Shown here: piece by piece, positions 7,717-14,643 of the stretch | Layout: each line of letters opens with the position of its first letter | Position numbering within the stretch: position 1 is the stretch's first letter | Assembly (NCBI GenBank): GCA_016286445.1 | Contig: JAEESS010000023.1 | Location: 1 to 35,021, forward strand | Length of the DNA: 35,021 bases | Direction of reading: 5' to 3' | Origin: Bacillota bacterium | Lineage (GTDB): Bacteria > Bacillota > Clostridia > Christensenellales > CAG-138 | Notes under the pieces: generated by a model | The model's database searches: none | The model's input: only the letters and a program-made list of their open reading frames with translations | What the model was told of the DNA's origin: nothing | Position numbers and translations under genes: made by a program

Positions 7717-7772
7717 ATCGTAGCACGGAACTTGTAACAGAGTCTTCACAGAGTTGTATCGGAGTTGTAAAA
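7717..7772 (-). promoter_or_regulatory. Operator A: four tandem 11-bp boxes plus -10
   Basis: Read on the plus strand, four contiguous 11-mers are GAGTTGTAAAA (7762-7772), GAGTTGTATCG (7751-7761), GAGTCTTCACA (7740-7750) and AACTTGTAACA (7729-7739). Six bases further is a minus-strand -10 TACGAT (7717-7722). No TTGACA-like -35 is present, so an activator at the -35 position is likely. OmpR/PhoB-family regulators characteristically bind 11-bp direct repeats. Confidence 0.7.
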
Positions 7773-7793
7773 TCGTCGAAGCCTGCTCGGCTT

Positions 7794-7966
7794 TTCTTGC
7801 CTCCCCTGTGTAAGGGGAGGTGGGTGAACGCAGTGAACCCGGAAGGGTTGTTCACGCGGCTTTGCCGCAATTCACGTCCGTTGGACAATCCTTCACGAAA
7901 TCCGATTCATTGACAACCCTCCCGGCTCGTTCCTCGCCACCCTCCCTTACACAGGGAGGGCAAGAA
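7794..7966. repeat. MITE-like palindromic repeat, copy A (short form)
   Basis: The element is bounded by near-perfect inverted termini: left TTCTTGCCTCCCCTGTGTAA, right TTACACAGGGAGGGCAAGAA. Its interior carries GGTTGTTCACGCGGCTTTGC and CAATTCA-separated mini-palindromes. It has the same length (about 172 bp) and layout as copy C at 10747-10918. It has no coding capacity. Confidence 0.85.
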
Positions 7967-8176
7967 TGCGCGCGAATCCCATAGGGGGAAGGCTTTTGGA
8001 TGTGCGCGTTCAGAGGCTTCCCCCCAGGGGGAAGCTGTCACCGTCAGGTGACTGATGAGGGGGTATTCTCCGCAAGGAGAATCTTCCTGAACGTGCCCGC
8101 AGGGCACATTTCACATCCCGCAGGGATATATCGCCCGTGCGAAGCACGGATATCACTTGTCGCAAAGCGGCAAATA
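7967..8176. repeat. Palindromic repeat cluster: GGCTTCCCC/GGGGAAGC unit and ATATCAC modules
   Basis: After MITE copy A comes a hairpin unit at about 8010-8066 (GAGGCTTCCCCC...GGGGGAAGCTG, a stem GTCACC/GGTGAC, then TGATGAGGGGGT). This is the same family as 11352-11402 and 24173-24229. From about 8091 short palindromes (for example GTGCCCGCAGGGCAC, CCGTGCGAAGCACGG) alternate with ATATCAC-like 7-mers. No gene is supported in 7691-8176; short open frames here run through repeats. Confidence 0.75.
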
Positions 8177-8268
8177 TCACTGCGCCTCCGGCGCTCCGAA
8201 CCGGACCGTCGCCGTCGTGCCCTTGCCGGGTTCGGAGGTAAACCGCAGCGTCGCGCCGTGCAGCGCGG
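8177..8268 (-). pseudogene. Duplicated remnant of the histidine-kinase C terminus
   Basis: On the minus strand this 92-base piece encodes ALHGATLRFTSEPGKG, then TTATVRFGAPEAQ and a stop. It matches the G2-box end of the intact kinase next door (ALHGAALRFTSEPGEG, then TTATVRF). Bases 8205-8268 match 8306-8369 at 61 of 64 positions. The fragment has no start and is flanked on both sides by ATATCAC repeats (8174-8180 and 8269-8275), which supply the TGA stop both here and in the intact kinase. Confidence 0.8.
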
Positions 8269-8271
8269 ATA

Positions 8272-9405
8272 TCACTGCGCCATAGGCGCCGCATCCGCAA
8301 ATCTTACCGTCGCCGTCGTGCCCTCGCCGGGTTCGGAGGTGAACCGCAGCGCCGCGCCGTGCAGCGCGGCGATCTCATGGCAGAGCGGCACGCCGAGCCC
8401 GCTGCGAATCGACGGGTTCTTCGCATGCGCGGGATCGTTGACGTAGCGAAGCTGTTCCGGGCTCATGCCGGAGCCTGTGTCGATGATCTCGATCACGCCG
8501 GGAATCGCCCGCATTCTGACCGGCGCGCCCGGTTCGGACGCCTTCACGGCGTTGCCGATCAGGTTTCCGAGCATGCTGAGGATCAGCGCGCGGTCGGCGG
8601 TGAGCGCGTCCCATGCGATCTCGGTATCGAGCGTCGGATACGTTGCCTTGAGATGTTCCGCAAGCTCCGAAAGCTTTACGCGCTCGGGACGGAACACGTT
8701 CTTGCGTGCGTCGGCAAGCGTCAGAAGCTTTTGCGAGATCTCGCCGAGCCGTTCGCTCTCCGAGACGATATAGCTTGCCGCCGTGTGCTGCTGCTCGGGC
8801 GTGAGCTTGGCGCGCTCCAGAAGCTCGCCGTAGCCGCGGATGACGGTCAGCGGCGTCCGGAGCTCATGCGCAAGGCGTTCGACCGGCTGATTGACGCGTT
8901 CGAGTATGATGTACAGCGCCGCCGCCACGCCGCCGATCAGCAGCGTGCAGAGGAGCATCGCGCCGGCGGTTTGCCGAACCGTGCGATGCACGACGTCAGT
9001 CACGTCCAGACCGTAGCGCAGCCAGACGCCGTCCGAAAGCGTATCTGCGATTGCAAGCACGGTGCGTCCGTCCTGCGTGATCCAGCGCATCTTGCCTGGC
9101 TCGACCTTCGGCGGGACCGGCTCGATCGCGACCAGTGTCTGCTCATCGCTGCCGAGCTCGAACGTTGCGTCTCCGCCGTCATACAATGCAAACCCGCGCA
9201 GATACGCGGCGCGGTTCTGCTCCGGTGTACGTTCCAGCATGCCGTCGATCGCAAGCGCAAGCGCTTTTTCCTCGCCGAGCGCGCGCGATTCCGCCGCACG
9301 GAACGCCGCACGGATGCTCGACAACAGCAGCCCCGTTGTGCAGACGTACAGCACCGCCGCCACGAGCAGGACCGTTATGAGATAGCTTTTCTGTCGAAGC
9401 TTCAC
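8272..9405 (-). CDS. Sensor histidine kinase without HAMP domain
   Basis: This 377-residue membrane kinase pairs with the adjacent OmpR-type regulator. TM1 is about 8-30, followed by an extracytoplasmic sensor of about 115 residues and TM2 at about 147-167. The H-box LAHELRTPL (H180) follows almost directly, leaving no room for a HAMP domain. The ATPase domain shows N-box NLIGNAVKAS (N285), G1 DTGSGM, a GLGVPL box and a GEGTTA G2-like end. The start is GTG at 9405, overlapping the regulator's TGA by four bases (GTGA), which indicates translational coupling; longer frames to 9534 run into the regulator gene. The stop TGA lies within an ATATCAC repeat and the last 22 codons are duplicated downstream. 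The ligand is unknown; the neighbouring lipoproteins suggest envelope sensing. Confidence 0.93.
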   Translation of the reverse strand: MKLRQKSYLITVLLVAAVLYVCTTGLLLSSIRAAFRAAESRALGEEKALALAIDGMLERTPEQNRAAYLRGFALYDGGDATFELGSDEQTLVAIEPVPPKVEPGKMRWITQDGRTVLAIADTLSDGVWLRYGLDVTDVVHRTVRQTAGAMLLCTLLIGGVAAALYIILERVNQPVERLAHELRTPLTVIRGYGELLERAKLTPEQQHTAASYIVSESERLGEISQKLLTLADARKNVFRPERVKLSELAEHLKATYPTLDTEIAWDALTADRALILSMLGNLIGNAVKASEPGAPVRMRAIPGVIEIIDTGSGMSPEQLRYVNDPAHAKNPSIRSGLGVPLCHEIAALHGAALRFTSEPGEGTTATVRFADAAPMAQ

Positions 9406-10055
9406 GGCGTTTCCTCGAACCGGTATCCGAGCCGGTAAACCGTTTTGATCCGGTCGTCCAGACCGAGCTTTTTGCGCAGCCGCTGAATATGCACGTCGAC
9501 CGTGCGCGTTTCGCCCATGAACGAGATATCCCACGCCTCGCGCATCAGCCGCTGCCGCGACAGTGCGATATTGCGGTTTTTCACCAGTACCTCCAAAAGC
9601 GTGTACTCCTGCATGGTGAGATCGACCGGAACGCCGCCCTTTGTGACCGATTTCGCCTCGAAATCGATCTCCAGATCGTCGATTTTATAGCGGCTGTCGC
9701 TCTTGTGCGTACGGCGCAGCACTGCCTCAACGCGCAGCAGAAGCTCCGTCATCTCGAACGGCTTGACGATATAATCGTCCGCGCCGCGTTCAAAGCCCTT
9801 GACCTTGTCCGCAGTCTCACCGAGCGCCGTCACGAAGATCGCCGGCGTACCCTTGAGCTTTTCGTATACCGTAAACCCGTCCGTGTCCGGAAGCATCACG
9901 TCGACGATCAGAAGATCGAACTGCGTCTTTTCCGCCGCTGCCAGCGCTTCCCGTCCGGTAAACGCCTGCACCGCCGTGTGCCCGACCATGCTGAGGTTCA
10001 GCGCAACGAGGTCGTTGATCGCTTTTTCATCCTCAATCACCAAAATTCTTGCCAT
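9402..10055 (-). CDS. OmpR/PhoB-family response regulator
   Basis: This 217-residue transcription factor has an N-terminal receiver with acidic pair E8-D9, phosphoacceptor D52 (IVDVMLPDTDG), T76 and K98 (DYIVKPF). A C-terminal winged helix ends in the typical TRTVDVHIQRLRKKLG and VYRLGYRF. The GGAGGGGCG ribosome site sits just before ATG 10055. It is the first gene of a two-gene operon with the kinase. Two tandem 11-bp boxes lie directly upstream, spaced from the -10 as at the 7690 gene, so autoregulation plus control of the flanking secreted-protein genes is likely. Confidence 0.95.
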   Translation of the reverse strand: MARILVIEDEKAINDLVALNLSMVGHTAVQAFTGREALAAAEKTQFDLLIVDVMLPDTDGFTVYEKLKGTPAIFVTALGETADKVKGFERGADDYIVKPFEMTELLLRVEAVLRRTHKSDSRYKIDDLEIDFEAKSVTKGGVPVDLTMQEYTLLEVLVKNRNIALSRQRLMREAWDISFMGETRTVDVHIQRLRKKLGLDDRIKTVYRLGYRFEETP

Positions 10056-10073
10056 ACGCCCCTCCTCAAGTGT

Positions 10074-10107
10074 ATTGTAACATATAAGTTGTAACAGAGT
10101 TGTAAAA
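10074..10107 (-). promoter_or_regulatory. Operator B: two tandem 11-bp boxes plus -10 of the two-component operon
   Basis: GAGTTGTAAAA (10097-10107) and AAGTTGTAACA (10086-10096), read on the plus strand, abut each other. Six bases further is a minus-strand -10 TACAAT (10074-10079). The -35 position shows only CAACTC, fitting activator dependence. The similarity with operator A continues beyond the boxes as TCGTCGRAGCCTGCTCGGCT. Confidence 0.75.
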
Positions 10108-10347
10108 TCGTCGGAGCCTGCTCGGCTTTGTTCGCAACGGTGTTCCTGTTTTTCCGAATATCTGCTGTTTTTTCATAAAACGCCGTTGCTCACCCTCCTC
10201 GCGGCTCCTCCTCTCCGAAAACGATCTCGCCTGCGGCGCGATATTCATCCGCGAAAAGCGTACCGCTTTTCTGCGTGTACACCTCATCCGGCTCGCTGAC
10301 GCTTCGCCACCTTCCCCTCAGAGGGGAAGGCTTTTGGGTGCACGTCA
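10108..10347. repeat. Gene-free stretch with palindromic fragments
   Basis: No convincing gene. The stretch holds a small hairpin (AGCCTGCTCGGCT near 10113), a GAAAAGCG/CGCTTTTC hairpin near 10252-10276, and an ACCTTCCCCTCAGAGGGGAAGG unit (about 10310-10332) leading into MITE copy B. Similar units recur at 10688-10738, 11033-11083 and 24268-24320. Confidence 0.65.
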
Positions 10348-10572
10348 TTCTTGCCTCCCCTGTGTAAGGGGGCGCCGATCCGAGCGCTCGCTGTGCGAGA
10401 AGGAGCGAGGTGAGGTGCGACCATGTTTCGGGATCGTTGGGTGACCCGGAAGGGTTGTTCACGCGACTTTGCCGCAATTCACGTCCGCAGGTCAATTCAC
10501 GGCGAAGCCAATTCATTGACAACCCTCCCGGCTCGTTCCTCGCCACCCTCCCTTGCACAGGGAGGGCAAGAA
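10348..10572. repeat. MITE-like palindromic repeat, copy B (long form)
   Basis: This element has the same terminal inverted repeats as copy A but is about 225 bp. The extra sequence (GGGCGCCGATCC through GGGATCGTTGGG) replaces the short form's AGGTGGGTGAACGC segment. Its right half is close to copies A, C and D. Copy D shares the long form. Confidence 0.85.
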
Positions 10573-11092
10573 TGCGCGCGAATCCCGTAGATGCGCGGAG
10601 CTGAGCGCTCGCTGTGCAAGGAGGAACGAAGCGGAAAGATGATATCTTCCTTACGGATTCACCCCCGTAGGGGGCGTGTACTCCCCATCCGGTCCCTACG
10701 GGACCACCTTCCCTATAACGAGGGGAAGGCTTTTGGGTGCACGTCGTTCTTGCCTCCCCTGTGTAAGGGGAGGTGGGTGAACGCGGTGAACCCGGAAGGG
10801 TTGTTCACGCGGCTTTGCCGCAATTCATGTCCGCAGGTCAATTCACGGCGCAGCCAATTCATTGACAACCCTCCCGGCTCGTTCCTCGCCACCCTCCCTT
10901 ACACAGGGAGGGCAAGAATGTGCGCGAATCCCGTAGATGCGCGGAGCTGAGCGCTCGCTGTGCAAGGAGGAACGAAGCGGAAAGATGATATCTTCCTTAC
11001 GGATTCACCCCCGTAGGGGGCGTGTACTCCCCATCCGGTCCCTGCGGGACTACCTTCCCCATAATGAGGGGAAGGCTTTTGGGTGCACGTCA
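10573..11092. repeat. Tandem duplication: 174-bp spacer, MITE copy C, 174-bp spacer
   Basis: Spacers 10573-10746 and 10919-11092 are both exactly 174 bp and nearly identical; they flank MITE copy C (10747-10918, short form, 172 bp). Each spacer contains CCCCCGTAGGGGGCGTG, GGTCCCTACGGGACC (or its CTGCGGGAC variant) and CCTTCCCCATAA...GAGGGGAAGG hairpins. The unit repeats with a period of 346 bp. Apparent short frames here are repeat-derived. Confidence 0.88.
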
Positions 11093-11318
11093 TTCTTGCC
11101 TCCCCTGTGCAAGGGGGCGCCGATCCGAGCGCTCGCTGTGCGAGAAGGAGCGAGGTGAGGTGCGACCATGTTTCGGGATCGTTGGGTGACCCGGAAGGGT
11201 TGTTCACGCGGCTTTGCCGCAATTCACGTCCGCAGGACAATCCTTCACGAAAGCCAATTCATTGACAACCCTCCCGGCTCGTTCCTCGCCACCCTCCCTT
11301 ACACAGGGAGGGCAAGAA
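11093..11318. repeat. MITE-like palindromic repeat, copy D (long form)
   Basis: It has the same termini and the same approximately 226-bp long form as copy B, with a few substitutions (for example TGTGCAAGG in the left end). Its flank GCGCGAATCCCATAGGGGGA matches the flank of copy A. Confidence 0.85.
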
Positions 11319-11494
11319 TGCGCGCGAATCCCATAGGGGGAAGGCTTATATGGAGGCTTCCCCTTGAGGGGAAGCTCCGCCGCAGGCGGTGATGAGGTGG
11401 TATCAATTCCGATTTTCCGCAGGAGAATCCTCCTGAACGTGCCCGCAGGGCACATATCACCCGCGAAGCGGATATCACTGCGCAGCCCCGGCGC
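11319..11494. repeat. Palindromic unit and ATATCAC module downstream of the lipoprotein operon
   Basis: A GAGGCTTCCCC/GGGGAAGCTC hairpin followed by CCGCCGCAGGCGG and TGATGAGG spans about 11352-11402. GTGCCCGCAGGGCAC, ATATCAC, CCGCGAAGCGG, ATATCAC follow at about 11440-11480. The order copies that at 7967-8180, beside the other minus-strand gene end. No classic T-tailed terminator was seen here, so these hairpins may serve as the 3' boundary. Confidence 0.75.
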
Positions 11495-12994
11495 TCAATA
11501 TCCTTTCCGCACGTCGATCACCGTGCCGTCGATCGCGTTGATCGAGAGCATGGGCTCGTACGGATAGGTGCTTTCGGTCGTTTCGATATAGTCCTCGACC
11601 TCGGTGCGCGTGTTGACGCCGTAGAAGTTCCACACCGGCACGAGCAGCGCGCTGTCCCATTCGTTCGGCTCCTGAATGCGCTGCAATGTAAGCTCGATGC
11701 GGTCGATGTCGTATTGATTCTGCGTCGTTGCGCCATACTTCAGGTCCGGCTCGGTGATGTTCATTGCGGCGGCGTATTTTGTATTGACCATTTTGAGATA
11801 AATCTCCATGATCCTGTCGAACGGCAGCAGATTTGCGTTCTCCACGACCGTGTCGCACACTTGTATCGGCGCATGCCAGTCCATGCCGACAATGCCGTCG
11901 CGGTCCATCCAGAACGACAAGGTTTCATACTCCCATGTCGGGCCCCAGATATCCGTCGAGTCCCACGTTTGCCCCCACATGAACGACGTATTCACGCCGT
12001 TGACCGTGCGAACGCATTTCACCCAATACATCGGATCGTCCGGCTGTTCCTGGACCTTATCCGGCGCGTACAGGACCGACCAGACCGCAAAGTCGTCCAT
12101 TCCGTTCTGTTTGAGGAACGCTTCGACGTCCGCTTTCGCCTGCTGCGGCGTGTAGCTGTCGTTTTGATATGTGTCGGGAACCGGGAAACACTCGATCTCA
12201 TCCGGGCGGCTCTTGCTTTTTCCGTATATCAGATACGCACCCTTCCTGCTTCCCAACGGAGAATCCGGGTCCGTGTTCAGCAAAACGAACCAGCGGTCCA
12301 TCGCCTTCGTATACGCCTCGATGCCCAGGGAGGTGGATTCGTGAGAAACCGGTCCGTTTGCGCCGTTTGTCACATAGTTGTGCGCCACCGTCTGCTGTTC
12401 GCCGTAACAGCGGACCGGCTCGATGGAATCCGGCGCGTCGGCATAGCTTGCTTTCAGCCGTTCGATCTCCGCCTTGACGTCGGCAAGGCTTTCCGCGCCG
12501 TGCTCACGGCTGTACGCCTGCTCGTCCGAAATGTTTTCCGAAAGGTATTTGATGCGCTCGGCGATCTGCGTCTTGGTATAGGTGCGGTCGAGATAATAGA
12601 ACTCCGCATCGCCGCACAGGTTCTGAAACAGGGTGCGGATGAACGCCGGATCGAAACCGCTCCGTTCGACGCGCACGATCGGGATCTCCGAAACGTCCGG
12701 TACCAGCACCTTTGCGTCGACGTTCAGGACAAAATGCCCCTCCGCAAGATCGGCGTGATACCGATACGCCTCCGGGATCTGATACCGTTCGCGAAGCGAC
12801 GGCAGGGGCAGCGCGGTATACCCGTCGCCGTCGGTCTGCATCCAACCGACCGTGTCCTCTTCGGGCGCAGGCGTGGTCTTCGCCATTTCAAGCATGGCGA
12901 CCGTATCCTTTTGCGGCACAAAGTCCTCCGTCGGCGTGGGCACGCAGGCACAAAGCAGCGCAAGCACCGATAAGATCAAAATCATGCGTTTCAT
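11495..12994 (-). CDS. Lipoprotein, DUF6034-like, paralogue of the upstream gene
   Basis: This 499-residue predicted lipoprotein has signal peptide MKRMILILSVLALLCAC with the lipidated cysteine at 17, then CVPTPTEDFVPQKD. Its body has no catalytic motif I recognise. It ends in LLVPVWNFYG and, near the end, LSINAIDGTVIDVRKGY. The same N- and C-terminal signatures occur in the gene immediately upstream, so the pair arose by tandem duplication and diverged. I recall these signatures from a Firmicute family annotated DUF6034, but could not search. It lies nine bases after the upstream gene with no promoter between, so it is the second gene of an operon under operator C. Confidence 0.85.
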   Translation of the reverse strand: MKRMILILSVLALLCACVPTPTEDFVPQKDTVAMLEMAKTTPAPEEDTVGWMQTDGDGYTALPLPSLRERYQIPEAYRYHADLAEGHFVLNVDAKVLVPDVSEIPIVRVERSGFDPAFIRTLFQNLCGDAEFYYLDRTYTKTQIAERIKYLSENISDEQAYSREHGAESLADVKAEIERLKASYADAPDSIEPVRCYGEQQTVAHNYVTNGANGPVSHESTSLGIEAYTKAMDRWFVLLNTDPDSPLGSRKGAYLIYGKSKSRPDEIECFPVPDTYQNDSYTPQQAKADVEAFLKQNGMDDFAVWSVLYAPDKVQEQPDDPMYWVKCVRTVNGVNTSFMWGQTWDSTDIWGPTWEYETLSFWMDRDGIVGMDWHAPIQVCDTVVENANLLPFDRIMEIYLKMVNTKYAAAMNITEPDLKYGATTQNQYDIDRIELTLQRIQEPNEWDSALLVPVWNFYGVNTRTEVEDYIETTESTYPYEPMLSINAIDGTVIDVRKGY

Positions 12995-13003
12995 TTTCTC
13001 ACC

Positions 13004-14545
13004 TCAATATCCTTTGTTCAGGTCGATAATGCTGCCGTCGATCGCGTTGATCGACAGAAGCGGCGAATCGCTCGCATAGTTGTGATGCGATTCCTCATAC
13101 GTTTCCCGCGTTTTGACGTTCGTGCGTGTGGTAACCGCCGTGCCGTAGAAATTCCAGACCGGAACCAGAAGCCCCGAATCAAACTTGTTCTTTTCCATGA
13201 CGCGCTGCAATCCAAGCTTAACGCGCGTGATCTTCACGCGCATATCGGACGGATAATCCGATTCGACCACCAGCGATTCGTCCAGGATCAGCCACGGCTT
13301 TTCCTCGATCCAGATCTGCTTTTTGAACCGTTCCAGAATCTCGTCGAACGGCAGCAGGTTCGTTTGCTCCAGCACGGTTTCCTTTACGGCAAGCGGCGCA
13401 TACCACGACAGTTCATATACGCCCTGCTCGTCGATGCAGACGGAGATCACCTCGTACATCCATCGCGGCGCAAAGCCGGAAACGTCAACGCTGATCCCGC
13501 CGGACCGCATGTGCCCGAGATACGAACCGAAAACGCCTGCGACTGCGTGCACGCAGTTGACGCGATATCCGCATTGCCCGCTCTTGGCGTCCGGATAGCA
13601 GATGACCGAATCCGCGCGGATCTCCGGAAACCCGGCGGCGGCAAAAAATGTGTCCGTGTCCGCCATCGCCTGCGCGGGCGTATAGGTGATAAAGGAATAC
13701 TCTGCAAGCTCCGCGGGATTCTGCGGATCAGCGATCGCAATCTTCGGGGTATGCAGATCGCCGTCGCCCTCGCCGCCGGTCAAAAGTGAGCGCGAGTTCA
13801 TGTAAGTCAACAGCGTGTCCTCCAGCCGGTGGCTCATGATCTCCTCCTGTCCCGGAATCGTCAGATGAAAAATGATCCTCGGCTGCTCGTCGCGCGAGAC
13901 TGCCTGGAAGCCGTAGCGCGTGTAGGTTTTCCCGTCGTCCTCGAGCGGCATCACGCCGATCGTGCCGTCGCAGACGTCTTCGTTCAGCTCATCCGGCGCG
14001 GTCTGCCACCGTTCCTTCAGATCCGCGATCCACTCCGGGATCATTGAAAGATCCTCTGCATTGAGCTCGGCGCGCAGTGCCGGATCGTTCAGTTCGCTTT
14101 CGAGCTGCGCGATCGCCTCCGCGATCTGCGATTTTGTCATCTGCCGGCTGTCGTGGTATAGCGTTCTTCCTTCGGTCAGCGCACGGAACAGGCGCGTGAC
14201 CTCTTCCTGCGTAAACGTGCCGCGCTCGACCCGGATGATCGGGATCGCGGCAGTGTCCGGGACCTCAACGATCGCGTCGATGTTCACGGTAAAATGCCCG
14301 TCGGCTTCGGTGACGGTCTCGTTGAGCCTCTCCGGGATCTCGTAGCGCTCCCGGATATGCGGCGCTTCGGAAAGCGCTCCGGTCGGTCCCGTGCCGCCCG
14401 CAAAGCCCACCGCATCCTCGACGGGCTCCGCTGCCTTCGCAAGCATTTCGTCCGTGTCCTTGTGCGTTACAAATTCCTTCTCCGGCGTCGGCACGCAGGC
14501 AAGGAGCAACAAGACCGCAAGCAGTAAAACAAAGATTCGTTTCAT
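13004..14545 (-). CDS. Lipoprotein, DUF6034-like, first gene of the operon
   Basis: This 513-residue predicted lipoprotein has signal peptide MKRIFVLLLAVLLLLAC with lipidation at C17, followed by CVPTPEKEFVTHKDTDEML. It shares with its downstream paralogue an early RERYEIPE segment, IPIIRVERGTF, a KSQIAEAI/KTQIAERI segment, NLLPFDEI near residue 400, and a C terminus with LLVPVWNFYG and LSINAIDGSIIDLNKGY. GGGGGA precedes ATG 14545. Four 11-bp boxes lie upstream, linking it to the two-component system. The function is unknown; a surface partner or sensor accessory for the kinase is inference from location and shared operator. Confidence 0.87.
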   Translation of the reverse strand: MKRIFVLLLAVLLLLACVPTPEKEFVTHKDTDEMLAKAAEPVEDAVGFAGGTGPTGALSEAPHIRERYEIPERLNETVTEADGHFTVNIDAIVEVPDTAAIPIIRVERGTFTQEEVTRLFRALTEGRTLYHDSRQMTKSQIAEAIAQLESELNDPALRAELNAEDLSMIPEWIADLKERWQTAPDELNEDVCDGTIGVMPLEDDGKTYTRYGFQAVSRDEQPRIIFHLTIPGQEEIMSHRLEDTLLTYMNSRSLLTGGEGDGDLHTPKIAIADPQNPAELAEYSFITYTPAQAMADTDTFFAAAGFPEIRADSVICYPDAKSGQCGYRVNCVHAVAGVFGSYLGHMRSGGISVDVSGFAPRWMYEVISVCIDEQGVYELSWYAPLAVKETVLEQTNLLPFDEILERFKKQIWIEEKPWLILDESLVVESDYPSDMRVKITRVKLGLQRVMEKNKFDSGLLVPVWNFYGTAVTTRTNVKTRETYEESHHNYASDSPLLSINAIDGSIIDLNKGY

Positions 14546-14577
14546 GGCAGCGTTCCCCCATTCTGTTTATCAAGATG

Positions 14578-14643
14578 AGAATAGCATCGAAATGCGTCCA
14601 AAACGTCACAGAAGTGTCACCGAGTTGTAACAGAGTTGTAAAA
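14578..14643 (-). promoter_or_regulatory. Operator C: four tandem 11-bp boxes plus -10 of the lipoprotein operon
   Basis: Read on the plus strand, contiguous 11-mers are GAGTTGTAAAA (14633-14643), GAGTTGTAACA (14622-14632), GAAGTGTCACC (14611-14621) and AAAACGTCACA (14600-14610). A possible minus-strand -10 TATTCT is at 14578-14583, sixteen bases from the last box, that is one more turn than in operators A and B. Confidence 0.7.

Follow-up and report, generated by a model that had tools for sequence, protein, structure and literature searches.

Head-to-tail 11-bp half-sites that replace the -35 element are a feature of OmpR/PhoB-family response regulators such as PhoB of Escherichia coli and PhoP of Bacillus subtilis, both of which are autoregulated. 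In the window studied here, a stretch of 35,021 nucleotides analysed as a whole (contig JAEESS010000023.1 of a Bacillota genome assigned to Clostridia), contiguous 11-mers stand ahead of three minus-strand units, which raises the question of which regulator reads them and how far its regulon extends. A sequence-only reading had proposed a local, self-contained regulon in which the adjacent regulator autoregulates and drives its flanking genes. We put at about 0.82 the probability that the 11-mers are operator half-sites of this adjacent regulator, hereafter RR-W, and that it drives a genome-wide envelope set. At the level of sequence comparison, an OmpR/PhoB-type envelope regulon is well supported, broader than first proposed and with an expanded lipoprotein family as its predicted main target, and it would give a lipoprotein family of unknown function in uncultured bacteria a regulator, an operator and a set of targets that can be put to the test.

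Tandem operator arrays in the window

The architecture first described for the three units was borne out when the sequence was re-read: tandem boxes occur in four, two and four copies, the last box lies six bases from the putative -10 in units 1 and 2, and a TTGACA-like -35 at 17 bp is, by eye, absent from all three units (Table 1). The tandem pattern TTACAACT-NN-GTTACAACT, derived from the window's own boxes, matches four times at three places in the window with up to three mismatches, compared with 0.01 matches expected and a maximum of one in 100 shuffles; this test uses the same boxes that built the pattern, and the independent tests are those on the other contigs and genomes. Lone 11-mers are moderately unusual, with nine matches at up to two mismatches where 3.3 are expected and the maximum of 100 shuffles is seven, and their tandem arrangement is far beyond chance.

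Table 1. Positions in the window of the operator arrays, putative -10 elements and genes of the three minus-strand units
Feature	Position	Strand	Remarks
Anchored extracytoplasmic protein, 522 aa	6122..7690	(-)	Weak model likeness to YpeB C-terminal domain
Putative -10 TACGAT, unit 1	7717..7722	(-)	6 bp from last box; -10 register statistics
Operator unit 1	7729..7772	(-)	4 adjoining 11-mers ahead of the gene for the anchored protein; coding strand 7772-7729: TTTTACAACTC CGATACAACTC TGTGAAGACTC TGTTACAAGTT, then 6 bp, then TACGAT
Sensor histidine kinase	8272..9405	(-)	HisKA and HATPase_c; GTG start at 9405 overlaps the regulator stop, by eye
RR-W, OmpR/PhoB-family response regulator, 217 aa	9402..10055	(-)	Pfam
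Putative -10 TACAAT, unit 2	10074..10079	(-)	6 bp from last box
Operator unit 2	10086..10107	(-)	2 adjoining 11-mers in the promoter of RR-W; coding strand 10107-10086: TTTTACAACTC TGTTACAACTT, then 6 bp, then TACAAT
DUF6034 (PF19499) lipoprotein, second of pair	11495..12994	(-)	E 2e-68
DUF6034 (PF19499) lipoprotein, first of pair	13004..14545	(-)	E 7.1e-76
Putative -10 TATTCT, unit 3	14578..14583	(-)	16 bp past the fourth box
Class-B 11-mer GGACGCATTTC, unit 3	14589..14599	(-)	5 bp ahead of the -10; same register as the boxes
Operator unit 3	14600..14643	(-)	4 adjoining 11-mers ahead of the two DUF6034 genes; coding strand 14643-14600: TTTTACAACTC TGTTACAACTC GGTGACACTTC TGTGACGTTTT

The regulator, its kinase and the anchored protein

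RR-W carries a Response_reg domain (PF00072, 75.9 bits against a Pfam cut-off of 30.2) and a Trans_reg_C domain (PF00486, 81.2 bits against 26.2), the combination that places it in the OmpR/PhoB family, in agreement with the earlier assignment. Just behind the kinase gene, part of its end occurs a second time (8205-8273 and 8306-8374, 69 nt, 93% identical), and a dispersed repeat, whose copies of 159-300 nt are 65-98% identical to the reference copies, fills the intergenic spaces round the operon (7837-7995 and 10321-11347). Neither Pfam nor NCBIfam contains a family that the anchored protein matches at E 0.001. When its AlphaFold2 model (mean pLDDT 75.4) was compared with the PDB by Foldseek, the C-terminal domain of YpeB was the only structure to score below E 0.001 (E 5.1e-4), with low TM-scores of 0.19 by query and 0.38 by target. 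At the tblastn threshold used, 18 of 19 orthologous loci have this protein after the regulator and the kinase; at the nineteenth (L121) the sequence ends soon after the kinase. Of the remaining window proteins included in the search, the DUF6034 and LRR lipoproteins are the only ones that reappear next to the regulator, at some of the loci.

The locus resembles the phosphate regulons of PhoB and PhoP in its regulator family, its 11-bp half-sites and the boxes in the regulator's own promoter. However, RR-W scores 185.4 bits against the PhoB model TIGR02154, whose cut-off is 296.2, and the predicted targets here belong to the envelope, a phosphate-uptake family being absent among the 14 Pfam families matched. 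The motif given for WalR (YycF), TGTWAH-N5-TGTWAH (PMC9210968), is the reverse complement of DTWACA-N5-DTWACA, to which TTTACA-N5-GTTACA in the arrays conforms, and envelope genes are among the WalR targets as they are among the predicted ones here. Against this likeness, RR-W reaches 150.9 bits with the WalR/YycF model NF040534 (cut-off 340), and the kinase reaches 46.4 bits with the WalK model NF033092 (cut-off 725); in Pfam it matches only HisKA and HATPase_c, with no HAMP or PAS match. The family cut-offs thus rule out a WalR or PhoB identity for RR-W. In the DbfQRS system of Vibrio cholerae, the PepSY-domain protein DbfQ exerts direct control over its kinase (PMC12714742); in such modules, as described there, regulator, kinase and extracytoplasmic protein are encoded together as they are here, although the present anchored protein is 522 aa long, has no Pfam PepSY match and bears a weak fold likeness to YpeB.

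Conservation of the boxes at orthologous loci

By eye, two boxes, 6 bp and a -10 precede the regulator in 16 of the 19 close loci (L106-L124), and in L110, L113 and L116 this arrangement is degenerate or absent. A scan with a box-pair matrix trained on the window's own genome alone (threshold at least 14 bits) found pairs before the regulator at 13 of 13 genus loci, 6 of 6 loci of clade B, where the regulator is 60-63% identical, and 16 of 59 distant loci, and, ahead of the gene that follows the kinase, at 13 of 13, 6 of 6 and 30 of 58 loci, respectively; the distant loci numbered 61 at the start, and 59 and 58 were left once those that were too short had been removed. The reverse strand of these windows yielded 1 of 13 loci once and otherwise 0, and six control sets (two windows in each of three groups) placed inside the coding sequences of regulator and kinase yielded 0 on both strands. 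When spacings of 6-19 bp were compared in the distant group, 11 bp was the commonest (30 loci), the next being 8 bp (13). A lack of conserved boxes upstream of orthologues was one of the outcomes that the sequence-only reading named as refuting it; at all 19 close loci the boxes are conserved.

The open reading frames behind 20 distant arrays mostly start, by eye, like signal- or membrane-anchored proteins. Homology between the distant gene after the kinase and the anchored protein of the window is unsupported by hhalign, and in Pfam the distant third genes have weak matches below cut-off only. As the operator can be traced from one genus to distant Firmicutes, a cultured relative could be used to study the regulator's signal and its partner gene. 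By their labels, several of the close orthologous loci belong to genome bins from ruminant forestomachs (omasum, reticulum and rumen).

Sites and predicted targets across the genome and genus

The own genome assembly (2.65 Mb, 109 contigs, 82% complete) contains 17 matches to the tandem pattern at up to three mismatches against five for the reversed pattern. Eight sites are found at up to one mismatch, three of them being the window units; four of the five outside the window stand directly before DUF6034 genes (C34 twice, C62 and C85), and no gene can be recognised shortly after the fifth (C100). Throughout the genus, 20 of 23 genomes have sites at up to two mismatches and none of the 23 has a match to the reversed control; outside the genus, matches occur in 2 of 18 genomes and control matches in 3 of 18. 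Since the sites are genome-wide, and most of those outside the window precede other DUF6034 genes, the regulon is not local; its spread over genome and genus, together with 38 DUF6034 hits in the genome, contradicts the "local" and "self-contained" part of the initial proposal. What stands of its claim on autoregulation and the flanking genes is that boxes lie in the regulator's own promoter and in its neighbour's; that RR-W binds them and activates transcription, we infer.

The predicted targets were surveyed in eight genomes of the genus (the own genome and others chosen among the match-rich ones), which supplied 77 promoter regions; 75 of these have an open reading frame behind them, with L231, L235, L292, L319, L320 and L326 looking like wrong picks. 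By Pfam at E 1e-4, the 75 first genes include 38 DUF6034 proteins, 8 response regulators, 6 SH3-repeat proteins, 2 VanZ, 2 NAGPA, 1 polysaccharide deacetylase and 1 LRR protein; seven of the regulators are RR-W and one is a paralogue (L224) with variant boxes, and a further seven first genes are, by eye, the anchored protein. The boxed first genes form an envelope set.

Both window DUF6034 proteins are full-profile matches (231.9 and 256.5 bits against a Pfam gathering cut-off of 27), so that the "DUF6034-like" label first attached to these lipoproteins is confirmed as PF19499. The model of the first of the pair (pLDDT 68.1) has as its sole Foldseek match below E 0.001 an uncharacterised protein of E. 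rectale (5coz), a profile search of solved structures returned chance-level matches only, a search of one full-text library found no papers naming DUF6034, and hhalign gives no support for homology between the family and the anchored protein. Most of the 38 hits in the own genome are without a detected array directly upstream, and many sit within runs of DUF6034 genes. Among the 23 genus genomes the family ranges from 0 hits (four genomes) up to 57, the latter in a genome of 2.3 Mb, and genomes with more box matches tend to have more of these hits (Spearman 0.72).

The position of the boxes relative to the -10 was scored as TANNNT downstream of the last box in 81 arrays from the same eight genomes, with tails that were not hand-selected. 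TANNNT falls at offsets of 5, 6, 16 and 27 bp in 11, 21, 26 and 10 cases, each above the maximum of 500 shuffles. These offsets belong to one register with an 11-bp step, and the boxes and the -10 therefore keep a fixed helical relation.

Proposed mechanism

We propose that RR-W, once phosphorylated by its kinase, would bind two to five boxes side by side as head-to-tail half-sites. The promoter-proximal box would take the place of the -35 element, so that RR-W could recruit RNA polymerase to a -10 at a distance of 5-6 bp, increased by one or two 11-bp turns where extra 11-mers intervene. RR-W would in this manner drive the operon that encodes it, the gene that follows the kinase, and DUF6034 lipoproteins and other envelope proteins throughout the genome, and the anchored protein, possibly a modulator of the PepSY/YpeB type, may feed back on the kinase. 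Because boxes precede the regulator-kinase pair, the anchored partner and many lipoprotein genes, much of the cell surface is probably governed by a single signalling system.

A second regulator and a second element in register

Unit 3 belongs to a second promoter class, whose extra element may be that of another regulator: its in-register GGACGMAT 11-mer adjoins the -10 and resembles the own promoter of a second regulator, RR-B, which is 45-49% identical to RR-W and was read in 21 of the 23 genus genomes. In 24 of the 81 arrays, GGACGMAT follows the last box at a distance of exactly 0 or 11 bp. Class-B units could accordingly be under composite control, RR-W reading the TTACAACT boxes and RR-B the proximal GGACGMAT 11-mer, which is compatible with the RR-W explanation and would place two signals in one 11-bp register; we regard this as a tenable, if tentative, addition. 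A class-B pattern drawn from unit 3 and similar promoters, TYGGACGMAT-N8-TANNNT, has nine exact matches in the whole own genome, and 21 against 4 for the reversed control at up to one mismatch. Seven of the nine stand before DUF6034 genes (that on C106 about 800 bp away), one before an SH3-repeat gene and one before no recognised gene, although only C22, before a DUF6034 gene, counts as an independent success, because the other eight were known before the pattern was written; C22 and C103 were both missed by the box pattern. Six other genomes gave 17 matches against none for the control; at least two of the 17 (L388 and L390) look coding by eye. The element is also present in RR-B promoters (exact in G020, by eye in G002 and G005) and, before membrane or secreted proteins, in the RR-W-less genomes G015 and G009. 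However, the other RR-B promoters (19 of 22) have related but different 11-mers at the corresponding place, and GGACGMAT may itself be a low-affinity half-site of RR-W. More speculatively still, one envelope-sensing two-component system may be wired to the expanded DUF6034 family, with many promoters also read by a second regulator through a different in-register 11-mer, a two-input surface-remodelling switch of rumen Clostridia that would have been built from an ancient, Firmicutes-wide arrangement of regulator, kinase, operator and anchored protein.

Control by RR-W also has to be weighed against the distribution of its gene. At least three box matches occur in 16 of 18 genomes with RR-W against 1 of 5 without it (Fisher p 0.008, kinship ignored), in a test that counts overlapping matches rather than promoters and takes the partial gene of G018 and the gene of G017 as present. 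G007, which is 95% complete, is a serious exception to this agreement, having 13 matches and neither RR-W nor its anchored partner detected, for which a lost contig is one conceivable reason; G009 and G020 have two matches each and no RR-W, and G017, whose gene resembles that of RR-W (58%) and contains one internal stop, has no match. The boxes of G007 would be accounted for if another OmpR-family regulator such as RR-B read them and RR-W were merely one of its targets, the more so as RR-B is widespread and the recognition helices are close (GETRTLDSHVQRLRRKL in RR-B and GETRTVDVHIQRLRKKL in RR-W). We nevertheless consider it unlikely. The 22 RR-B promoters read by eye, G017 being left out, have a different core (GTCCGCATTT in 13, TGACGCATTT in three, GGACGAAT in three and other variants in three) and show no TTTTACAACTC array; G015 and G019 (59% complete) possess RR-B and DUF6034 and have no TTACAACT match at up to two mismatches; and the boxes follow RR-W into clade B and the distant loci. 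That the boxes were simply copied along with duplicated DUF6034 genes and do not function as operators is highly improbable, and is rejected on the strength of unrelated boxed genes (regulator, SH3, VanZ and NAGPA genes) and of a -10 register kept across 81 arrays while box number and flanks vary, even though the family is expanded and its paralogue promoters share long stretches.

A strong class-B array with its -10 at L235 (about 3049; G000:C100:5550) has no recognisable gene close behind it, and L292 and L326 are similar arrays without a clear gene; a small RNA or a lost gene is possible at these places. The RR-B promoter core is strongly conserved, most often TGTTACATTTT GTCCGCATTTG, 5 bp and then the -10, in a set of 21 genus genomes including the own genome (L400-L415 except L413, L038-L041, L043, L214 and L215). 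Two near-identical RR-B loci (G000:C105 and G000:C94) lie in one assembly with a contamination of 5.56%, reflecting either a recent duplication or mixed strains. Two more regulator paralogues are found beside runs of DUF6034 genes, at L224 2094 (G000:C31) and L216 (G000:C34), with variant boxes of their own, GGTTACGATTC TGAGACGATTC and AATTACATTTT GATTACATCCC, respectively, which suggests several parallel systems.
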